DNA of 64,000 bases, from assembly GCA_002457145.1 (NCBI GenBank), contig NTJP01000005.1, positions 43,255 to 107,254 on the forward strand, given 5' to 3'. A model generated the notes under the pieces. It was not told where the DNA came from, ran no database searches, and saw nothing but the letters and a program-made list of their open reading frames with translations. How positions within the stretch are numbered: position 1 is the stretch's first letter; each line of letters opens with the position of its first letter. The stretch comes from Marine Group II euryarchaeote MED-G38 (GTDB lineage Archaea; Thermoplasmatota; Poseidoniia; Poseidoniales; Thalassarchaeaceae). Positions 5,820 through 9,063 of the stretch are shown piece after piece. The position numbers and the translations under genes are program-made.

Positions 5820-6119
5820 ATGGAAACACTAATATGTCGTTTTGAAAAATTAGAAAATATCAAATCTGAAGTATTGGATAATGAAATTATGTTTCTGGCT
5901 GATACCTTAGAGATGTTAAGAATAACAGATGAAATATCTAACGATGCATTCTTAGATGCTGGTATGATACAAGGTGGATTATCGATAATATCTAATCTAT
6001 TATCTCAAGGCCTTAATCCAGAAGATGTTCGAAACCAAATAAATAGATTAAAACAAAAAAGTATTGCATTATCAAAAACTTATCCAGAATTAGATAAATT
6101 GATTGAAGAAAGAAGATAA
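5820..6119 (+). CDS. Hypothetical protein (99 aa, alpha-helical)
   Basis: Intact ORF in operon-like spacing; no recognised family. Confidence 0.55.
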   Translation: METLICRFEKLENIKSEVLDNEIMFLADTLEMLRITDEISNDAFLDAGMIQGGLSIISNLLSQGLNPEDVRNQINRLKQKSIALSKTYPELDKLIEERR

Positions 6120-6160
6120 TACTTAGGTAATATTCAGGTAATACTTGAGTAATATTTAAT
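6117..6160. repeat. Four phased 11-bp tandem repeats (TAATACTTAGG / TAATATTCAGG / TAATACTTGAG / TAATATTTAAT); candidate operator
   Basis: Read directly: units at 6117-6127, 6128-6138, 6139-6149 and 6150-6160, with no gaps, just upstream of the RHH ORF at 6184. Confidence 0.7.
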
Positions 6161-6183
6161 AATAAAATCTAGTTCCAATAATT

Positions 6184-6357
6184 ATGCCTAAAGTTAGTTT
6201 AGATATGCCTCAACAAATTATTGAGGACCTAAGAAAACATGTTGGAGACGATAGGAAATATGTAAGTTTGGCGGATGCCATTAGAACAGGTTGTAGAAAA
6301 TTGTTAGATCAATTGGATGAAATTGACGCACGTCATGGGAGGATTGAGAATGAATAA
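6184..6357 (+). CDS. Small ribbon-helix-helix (CopG/RHH-like) DNA-binding protein, 57 aa
   Basis: Translation MPKVSLDMPQQIIEDLRKHVGDDRKYVSLADAIRTGCRKLLDQLDEIDARHGRIENE; RHH-like beta-strand + two helices; missing from the ORF track (below 60 aa); overlaps folE start by 8 nt. Confidence 0.75.
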   Translation: MPKVSLDMPQQIIEDLRKHVGDDRKYVSLADAIRTGCRKLLDQLDEIDARHGRIENE

Positions 6358-6925
6358 TATAGGACGAAAAGAAGCTGAATCTGCAATTAAGACTTTACTG
6401 AAATACTTAGAAGATGACTTTAATAGAGAAGGACTAAAAGAAACTCCTAAAAGAGTCATAGATTCATTTGATGAGATATTTGCTGGTTACCAGCAACGAC
6501 CATCAGAGGTTTTAGCATCAACGTTTAATGCAGAAGGTTACGATGGAATCGTTCTTCTGAGAGATATTGAATTTTATTCTACATGTGAACATCATTTACA
6601 ACCATTTAGCGGTCGAGCACATATTGCTTACATACCCACAGATAGAATTGTTGGGATCAGTAAATTAGCAAGGATTGTAGAATTATACGCGAGAAGATTA
6701 CAGAATCAAGAAAGAATAACAATATCTATTGTAGATGATATTGTTGAAAATTTAAATCCATTAGGAGCAGGGGTGATATTAGAAGCAAGACACGGATGTA
6801 TGCAATGTCGTGGCGTATCCAAACAAAATGCTGTTATGACAACCAGTGCTATGAGAGGGGTATTTTTCGAAGATTCTGGGGCCCGTTCTGAATTAATGCA
6901 ATTAATCAGGAGTAGGGAACTGTGA
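6350..6925 (+). CDS. folE: GTP cyclohydrolase I (FolE)
   Basis: FYSTCEHHLQPFSGRAHIAYIP, GISKLARIVELYARRLQNQER, HGCMQCRGV; start set at ATG 6350 (MNNIGRKEAES). Confidence 0.95.
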   Translation: MNNIGRKEAESAIKTLLKYLEDDFNREGLKETPKRVIDSFDEIFAGYQQRPSEVLASTFNAEGYDGIVLLRDIEFYSTCEHHLQPFSGRAHIAYIPTDRIVGISKLARIVELYARRLQNQERITISIVDDIVENLNPLGAGVILEARHGCMQCRGVSKQNAVMTTSAMRGVFFEDSGARSELMQLIRSREL

Positions 6926-7518
6926 GCACCTACCCCATTGTTGAGATATTTCACTCAGTTCAAGGTGAAGCATTTCATACTGGGGTTCCACATGTATTTA
7001 TCAGATTTGGTAACTGTAATTTAAGATGTGAATGGTGTGATACAGACTTTCTAACATTTCATGAAATGTCGTTAGAACAAATAATCAATCAAGTAGTATC
7101 ATACAATTGTAAAAGAGTTATTTTTACAGGTGGAGAACCTTGTATGCAGGATTTGAATACAATAGGTAAAGAATTAAAGAAATATGATATTCATCTCTCT
7201 GTCGAAACCAACGGAACTATAAGAGTCCCAAATATCATAGATTGGATTTGCGTCTCTCCAAAAGATCAAATTTATCCAAATGTGAATATTGAACAACGTA
7301 CTGGAGACGAATTAAAGGTTGTTTATTGTGGACAAGATCTTTCAATTTATGATGATATTAAAAAAGGATTCAAACATCATTACATACAACCTTGTTACAT
7401 AGAGAACGATAGTATTGAATCGAATGGAAGAAGTTTTAGTATAGTTGAAAAAGTGGTAAAGTCTAATCCGGGATGGAGACTATCATTACAAACTCATAAA
7501 TGGATGGGAGTTGATTGA
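6922..7518 (+). CDS. queE: 7-carboxy-7-deazaguanine synthase (QueE), radical SAM
   Basis: EIFHSVQGEAFHTGVPHVFIRFGNCNLRCEWCDTDF; GTG start overlapping folE stop. Confidence 0.94.
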   Translation: MSTYPIVEIFHSVQGEAFHTGVPHVFIRFGNCNLRCEWCDTDFLTFHEMSLEQIINQVVSYNCKRVIFTGGEPCMQDLNTIGKELKKYDIHLSVETNGTIRVPNIIDWICVSPKDQIYPNVNIEQRTGDELKVVYCGQDLSIYDDIKKGFKHHYIQPCYIENDSIESNGRSFSIVEKVVKSNPGWRLSLQTHKWMGVD

Positions 7519-8607
7519 ATGAGAGTAGTTATGGCATTAAGCGGAGGAATGGATTCTACAGGGCTATTACTACGTCTTTTATCAGATGGATATAAAGTGA
7601 CATGTTTAATATATGATTATGGTCAAAAGCATATTATAGAAATTGAAAGGGCTCTTCAGAATTTAACTTATATAAATAATAACGGGATCAAAGTAGACCA
7701 TAAAGTAGTAAATCTATCTAGTGTAATGGGATTATTTCATTCATCATTAATTAAAAATAATGAAGAAATTCCTGAAGGCCACTATGAGGAAGAACAAATG
7801 AAATCAACAGTTGTGCCAAATAGGAATGCGATTTTCGCCTCAATTTTGTATGGTTATGCGTTGAGTATTGGATTAAAAGAAGATACTAATGTAAAAATAG
7901 CATTAGGAGTTCACTCAGGAGACCACGTTATATATCCAGATTGCAGACCAGAGTTTTATGAGTTATTAGAACAAGCCTTTGCAAAAGGCAATTGGAACTC
8001 CGAAAAAGTTTCTTTGCACTTGCCTTATATTGATGGAAATAAAGAAACAATATTAAGGGATTCTATCAATTCATGTAGAAAATTAAGACTTGATTTTGAT
8101 ACTGTTTTTGCTAATACGAATACCTCTTATAACCCTGATTCTAATGGTAGATCTTCGGGCACTAGTGGTGCCGATATTGAAAGAATACTAGCATTCTATT
8201 CTATTGGTAAGAAAGACCCAGTGGAATATGTAAAGCCATGGGAAAATGTATTATCTGAAGCTTTAAAAACTAAATTAAGATATAATGTAATGAAAGAAAA
8301 TGGAACCGAGCAGCCATTCACAGGTGAGTATGATAAACACTTCAAAGAAGGGGTTTATACCTGTTATGATTGTGGTAAGAAATTATTTTCATCTAAATCT
8401 AAATTTGATTCCGGATGTGGCTGGCCAGCATTTTCTGAAGAATTTGATAATGCAGGTATAATAAAAATAAATGATAATTCCTATGGAATGAATAGAATTG
8501 AAGTAAGATGTAGTGGATGTGAATCACATTTAGGCCATCTTTTCCATGAATCAAAAGGTCCAAGATATTGCATAAATTCTATATGTTTAAAATTCGAGGG
8601 AAAGTAA
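7519..8607 (+). CDS. QueC-like 7-cyano-7-deazaguanine synthase fused to MsrB (peptide-methionine (R)-S-oxide reductase)
   Basis: N-terminal QueC PP-loop LSGGMDSTG and VPNRNAIFAS; C-terminal complete MsrB (NGTEQPFTGEY, CYDC, GCGWPAF, CSGCESHLGHLF, RYCINS). Confidence 0.92.
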   Translation: MRVVMALSGGMDSTGLLLRLLSDGYKVTCLIYDYGQKHIIEIERALQNLTYINNNGIKVDHKVVNLSSVMGLFHSSLIKNNEEIPEGHYEEEQMKSTVVPNRNAIFASILYGYALSIGLKEDTNVKIALGVHSGDHVIYPDCRPEFYELLEQAFAKGNWNSEKVSLHLPYIDGNKETILRDSINSCRKLRLDFDTVFANTNTSYNPDSNGRSSGTSGADIERILAFYSIGKKDPVEYVKPWENVLSEALKTKLRYNVMKENGTEQPFTGEYDKHFKEGVYTCYDCGKKLFSSKSKFDSGCGWPAFSEEFDNAGIIKINDNSYGMNRIEVRCSGCESHLGHLFHESKGPRYCINSICLKFEGK

Positions 8608-9063
8608 ATGGTAACTAAAATAATGAGATGGGTAGAAACTGATACAGGGCATAGAGTTCCTAATCATAAAAGTAAATGTAGACATTTTCATGGCCATAGA
8701 TATAGATGGGAGGCCGTTATTGAGGGTGATGTTGTTAGTCAAAAAGGTGTTTCTGATGAAGGTATGTTAATGGATTTTTCAGATATTTCAATTATTCTTA
8801 ATACGGAGATACACGACATAGTAGATCATTCATTCTTAGTTTATGAGAATGATTTGGAGGCGCTTAAAGCACTAGAAATATTGGAACCGGGACATAGAAC
8901 CTTGGTATTACCATTCATCCCAACAGCTGAAAACCTAGCCAGATGGGCTTTTGAAAAAGTTGAGAAACATATTAAAAGTTCGTATCAAAACAAGTTAAGG
9001 TTAGTTTCTTTTAATGTTAGAGAAACCCCCAAATCATGGGCTAGTTGGACTCCTGATCTTTAG
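8608..9063 (+). CDS. queD: 6-carboxytetrahydropterin synthase (QueD/PTPS family)
   Basis: TGHRVPNHKSKCRHFHGHRYRWEAVIEG, MDFSDI, DHSFL, PTAENLARW. Confidence 0.93.
   Translation: MVTKIMRWVETDTGHRVPNHKSKCRHFHGHRYRWEAVIEGDVVSQKGVSDEGMLMDFSDISIILNTEIHDIVDHSFLVYENDLEALKALEILEPGHRTLVLPFIPTAENLARWAFEKVEKHIKSSYQNKLRLVSFNVRETPKSWASWTPDL

Follow-up and report, generated by a model that had tools for sequence, protein, structure and literature searches.

The preQ0 (7-deazaguanine) operon of Marine Group II and related archaea is preceded by an array of short palindromic repeats placed 11 bp apart, and we consider it probable, at roughly three chances in four, that this array is the operator of an autorepressed operon, which dimers of an RHH-type protein encoded by the first gene would fill cooperatively, blocking TBP/TFB. 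Sequence comparison establishes the conservation of the array, the palindromic form of its units, its single genomic location and its co-inheritance with the regulator and the operon. The result is a precise putative operator-regulator pair, conserved throughout a class of marine archaea that are abundant and uncultured, and a regulator family beyond the Pfam and NCBIfam cut-offs. Both the protein and the operator are small enough for study in vitro without culture of the host (one synthetic DNA and one 57-aa protein).

The repeat array and its promoter

Direct reading of the window, that is, the whole 64,000-nucleotide stretch of DNA analysed, bears out the first-pass annotation's description of four gapless 11-bp tandem units at 6117-6160, namely TAATACTTAGG (6117-6127), TAATATTCAGG (6128-6138), TAATACTTGAG (6139-6149) and TAATATTTAAT (6150-6160), which end 23 bp before the ATG of the regulator gene at 6184. 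The TAA at 6117-6119 doubles as the stop codon of an upstream ORF (5820-6119). Taken as four ungapped 11-bp units, the array is the best site in all 64 kb, with 37 of 44 column matches, a value reached in the window solely by start positions 6113-6117, and the three-site score of its upstream region was reached by 0 of 200 dinucleotide shuffles. Its Tandem Repeats Finder score is a middling 43, and about eight arrays in the window score higher. This ordinary score of the single sequence, together with the AT-richness of the window (34% GC), would favour a chance repeat in AT-rich DNA or an element of an RNA leader, to which we nevertheless give almost no credence. Chance is ruled out by the fixed phasing seen throughout the class, and an RNA element by the Rfam covariance models, none of which, the preQ1/preQ0 riboswitch included, matched 5900-6500 at E up to 1; in addition, if the TATA has been placed correctly, the approximately 23 bp from array to ATG are too short to hold a leader.

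A better register of the units is provided by the alignment of 123 promoters: the unit becomes the 9-bp palindrome AGTAWTACT, centred in the window at 6119, 6130, 6141 and 6152, 11 bp apart. From the sequence and this alignment, the putative operator units, which have no assigned strand, are unit 1, GATAATACT (6115-6123), the most distal one, which includes the stop codon TAA of the upstream ORF; unit 2, GGTAATATT (6126-6134); unit 3, GGTAATACT (6137-6145); and the promoter-proximal unit 4, AGTAATATT (6148-6156), overlapping what we take, from general knowledge of archaeal promoters, to be the BRE. A TATA-like element, TTTAATAA, occupies 6155-6162 on the forward strand, about 22-29 bp before the ATG, and an AT-rich TTATA stands at the same place class-wide; its position is consistent with a leaderless transcript.

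Conservation of the array in Poseidoniia

The array precedes the orthologous regulator gene across the archaeal class Poseidoniia, in Marine Group II and in part of Marine Group III, whose genomes belong to another family of the class. When three units were scored at spacings of 7-16, a spacing of 11 was uniquely the best in 110 of 123 promoters and tied for best in 7 more (117 in all), and 93% of the 123 gave p<=0.005 against dinucleotide shuffles; as the promoters are related by descent, these counts are not independent trials, and the contrast within each promoter is therefore the better argument. The array holds 0.99 bits of information per column, the 20 bp ahead of the ATG 0.38 and upstream DNA 0.11; in the two distal blocks of the 123 distinct upstream regions aligned, the value reaches up to 1.9 bits per column. 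The promoter-proximal block reads approximately GAATACTTATA, with its commonest centre 32 bp before the start codon, and merges the unit with a BRE/TATA-like element; the overlap of the last unit with a TATA-like sequence, noted at first in this one locus, recurs in most promoters. The unit matrix correlates with its own reverse complement at 0.96, a value that owes something to the palindromic search consensus and is supportive rather than independent proof. In 46 promoters aligned on the array, a short stretch between TATA and ATG, about 9-12 bp ahead of the regulator's start codon, shows weak conservation and is perhaps an initiator-type element.

Loss of the repeats from orthologous loci had been named in the first-pass annotation as the outcome that would speak against an operator; instead, they are kept with the same 11-bp phasing. 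Its expectation that phasing and repeat number would both be conserved holds for the spacing, fixed at 11 bp, but not for the number, which varies, with mostly two to four in-phase units per promoter. Similarly, the drift of repeats beside a retained regulator, which it had set against the operator, is generally not found, except in one small clade (L083, L085, L087, L098, L102 and L148) with a decayed, weak two-unit array in which TATTC is repeated 11 bp apart. The array of this clade lies nearer the ATG, and in the clade's regulator residue 35 is S and residue 51 mostly Q. Judged from these alignments, the array is a conserved and apparently ancient feature of the promoter heading the preQ0 operon in Poseidoniia.

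One array per genome

At the stringency used, sequence searches indicate that the array marks one promoter and not a regulon. Of 58 whole genomes, 33 contain the three-unit pattern (<=2 mismatches), with every match just upstream of the regulator, and the two-unit pattern (<=2 mismatches) matched at the regulator promoter only in ten whole genomes, in which its reversed control gave about one match per genome. Genes of tRNA-guanine transglycosylase (TGT) have no array in the fetched stretches around them. A regulon defined by two- or three-unit arrays was rejected on both grounds. Wider control through single or degenerate sites, with the 57-aa protein binding the array and acting elsewhere as well, is improbable in our estimation. 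It would follow the precedent of CdrS, a global regulator with 18 sites (PMC8406309), and single sites cannot be searched for with useful specificity; the whole genomes, however, are without a second two- or three-unit array, and the regulator is missing where folE is missing, unlike a housekeeping regulator.

A different transcription factor might also occupy the array, leaving another role to the small protein. Binding of the array is a proposed function of the 57-aa protein, and the same genomes encode other RHH_1 proteins; even so, each genome has one array, always before the regulator gene even where the neighbours differ, and from a general factor one would expect further targets, which makes this reading slightly more improbable still than wider control.

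The operon and the co-inheritance of regulator and folE

The putative regulator gene (6184-6357, forward strand, as are all genes of the operon) is followed, with an 8-nt overlap, by folE, encoding GTP cyclohydrolase I (6350-6925; PF01227, E 3.8e-68), and then by queE for 7-carboxy-7-deazaguanine synthase (6922-7518), assigned by operon context and a TIGR04508 match (E 1.2e-39) below the curated cut-off. The next gene is a fusion of queC with msrB, the gene of methionine sulfoxide reductase B (7519-8607; PF06508 and PF01641), and the last is queD for 6-carboxytetrahydropterin synthase (8608-9063; PF01242, with TIGR03367 at E 8.5e-22, just below its cut-off). Relatives of one group (e.g., L038, L043, L046, L053 and L061) have queD directly after queC and no msrB match at the locus. 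The window lies in a genome of the Poseidoniales (Marine Group II), and its nearest fetched relative is a Candidatus Thalassarchaeaceae archaeon, whose FolE is 93% identical.

All 80 fetched loci have the order regulator-folE-queE-queC(-msrB)-queD within the limits of their contigs, and the linkage of regulator and folE reported for the window is retained in relatives. The genes upstream of the array differ among these loci while the array is kept; since the upstream gene varies, it is ruled out that the array belongs to that gene. In the Marine Group III locus L203, a gene for a predicted membrane protein of 253 aa (1293-2054) stands between regulator and folE, and the array still precedes the regulator.

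Five of the relatives searched are without the regulator, and these are without folE too; in one of them, G054, queC lies at the start of a contig, so that the absence is an assembly gap. Apparent mismatches between regulator and folE in the class-wide sample coincide with contig ends (G080, G107, G063, G076 and L055) or with a divergent FolE (G059). The latter genome, from Marine Group III and 97% complete, has no regulator and no TGT match, and its FolE (C12:14278-14796; 44% identity) serves perhaps another pathway. Within genus g8, G016, G026 and G035 are without regulator, folE and queC, while in G092, G111, G112 and G123 the regulator and folE are both present. The pattern of joint presence and absence is consistent across the genomes compared, single absences being uncertain because the genomes are incomplete. 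A sample of 392 genomes of the phylum yielded no member of the regulator family beyond the class. Four g8 genomes, 79-89% complete (G016, G026, G035 and G138), have no detected regulator or folE (queC is missing in the three tested) and keep the TGT gene, hinting at preQ0 salvage in the same lineages as the operon; salvage or import is possible in these cells.

The 57-aa protein

The regulator is present, as a rule, in one copy per genome, and its assignment to the RHH type rests on a weak but consistent profile match and on the layout of its helices. Searched with the CdrS profile (NCBIfam NF058555, an RHH family), 49 of 61 members gave a match, the best at E 1.4e-6 and below the curated cut-off; residues 1-47 of the window protein align with this profile at 19.4 bits, against an equivalog cut-off of 100 bits. 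Membership in CdrS itself was rejected, the match being real but weak and far below the cut-off, and the neighbour in the 80 fetched loci being folE-queE-queC-queD, not ftsZ2. For PF01402, the best of 20 members reached E 0.1, below the cut-off. Within a small set, the family profile aligns over positions 2-41, at E of about 0.01-0.1 and in the register expected, with recognised RHH_1 proteins that these genomes also encode. An AlphaFold2 monomer model built from 61 sequences is extended over residues 1-9 and predicts helices at 10-19 and 29-50 (pLDDT 78.5) and no strand. The regulator falls below the RHH cut-offs of Pfam and has no significant sequence match and no fold match in the PDB, and an uninformative profile comparison with CopG gave no alignment. 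Proteins of the RHH (MetJ/Arc/CopG) superfamily combine one beta strand with two subsequent helices in an intertwined dimer. Since the small ones acquire their fold on dimerisation (PMC4803016), it is no surprise that modelling the monomer yielded neither a strand nor a fold match. The RHH identity given in the first-pass annotation is weakly supported by the CdrS profile and the helices, and neither Pfam, nor the PDB, nor fold comparison gave anything significant. The operator layout found class-wide, 9-bp palindromes 11 bp apart before the regulator's own gene, is that of the RHH type, whose operators consist of short and often palindromic sites along one helix face and commonly lie in the promoter of the regulator itself.

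Between 22 and 23 positions of the regulator are invariant, including K3, S5 and D7, as would be expected of strand residues that read a fixed operator. Outside the putative DNA-reading strand, H19, G21, K25, C37, D42, D45, D48, G52 and R53 are also invariant, which would be explained if the protein sensed a 7-deazaguanine, be it preQ0 or an intermediate of its pathway, and used it as a co-repressor. Such sensing, which we consider unlikely, would amount to MetJ-like end-product control in place of the bacterial preQ1 riboswitch.

A model of autorepression

Conservation, linkage and promoter specificity, all drawn from sequence, support the earlier reading of the array as an autoregulatory operator, to which we add a mechanism; in it we infer the RHH fold, binding, cooperativity, repression rather than activation, and any signal. 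Each 9-bp palindrome AGTAWTACT would be read by one dimer through its paired N-terminal strands, and the unit being a palindrome of this size, one dimer per unit is probable. With a spacing of 11 bp, about one helical turn, neighbouring dimers would lie on the same face of the DNA, so that their binding can be cooperative. The distal units, which are nearest the consensus, would be filled first and the weaker proximal unit over the BRE/TATA later; as the regulator accumulates, occupancy would spread towards the BRE until TBP/TFB are blocked. More regulator would thus mean less transcription of its own gene and of folE-queE-queC-queD, and simple homeostasis of this kind would require no releasing signal.

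Several observations count against the model: the protein stays below the Pfam RHH cut-offs and matches nothing in the PDB by sequence or fold, L083 and its relatives keep the regulator yet have a weak array, and the closest family with a name, CdrS, reportedly acts as a likely activator. The main rival has the same protein and operator serving activation, with dimers upstream of the BRE recruiting or stabilising TBP/TFB. Most units do lie upstream of the BRE, and CdrS probably activates ftsZ1 from upstream sites (PMC8406309); on the other hand, most promoters have a unit over the BRE/TATA position, which is the usual site of repression, and the regulator heads its own operon, where RHH proteins typically show negative feedback (PMC5569661). 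We regard activation as unlikely and retain autorepression as the preferred reading.

Comparison with known systems

To our knowledge, the known dedicated controls of the preQ0 pathway are bacterial riboswitches. The preQ1 riboswitches control genes of 7-deazaguanine synthesis or uptake in bacteria and resemble the present system in their target, but they are RNA-based and bacterial, and the preQ0 array has no Rfam match. In the open-access literature, we found no protein, RHH or other, that regulates preQ0/archaeosine synthesis, in agreement with the first-pass annotation, which knew of no such RHH control. MetJ acts on a biosynthetic pathway by way of palindromic boxes in tandem and uses a co-repressor, whereas none is known for the 57-aa regulator. 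The omega repressor of the omega-epsilon-zeta system places one RHH dimer on each heptad and fills tandem units cooperatively (PMC4803016). Both share with the proposed operator one RHH dimer per short repeat and cooperative tandem filling, and differ in having units of 7 or 8 bp, as against 9 bp at 11-bp spacing here.

CdrS, a haloarchaeal RHH regulator of cell division with 18 chromosomal sites and likely activation (PMC8406309), is the nearest profile, and is likewise small and encoded by the first gene of an operon (cdrS-ftsZ2). It differs in its neighbour ftsZ2, its 18 sites and its likely activation, and the regulator described here scores 19 bits against the cut-off of 100. SvtR of SIRV1 and F55 of SSV1 are small archaeal-virus RHH repressors of their own promoters; F55 binds tandem repeats with the 11-letter consensus ATAGATAGAGT, overlapping the BRE or the start site, and in the model for these repressors occupancy grows from strong distal sites to the BRE/TATA (PMC5569661). 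Layout and, as proposed here, mechanism are the same as for the preQ0 array, but SvtR and F55 are viral, with several targets and other site sequences, whereas the present regulator would serve a single target, a chromosomal biosynthetic operon. The proposed mechanism resembles that of known RHH autoregulators with tandem operators (SvtR, F55 and omega); new here are the preQ0 target, the protein family and the repetition of a 9-bp palindrome every 11 bp.
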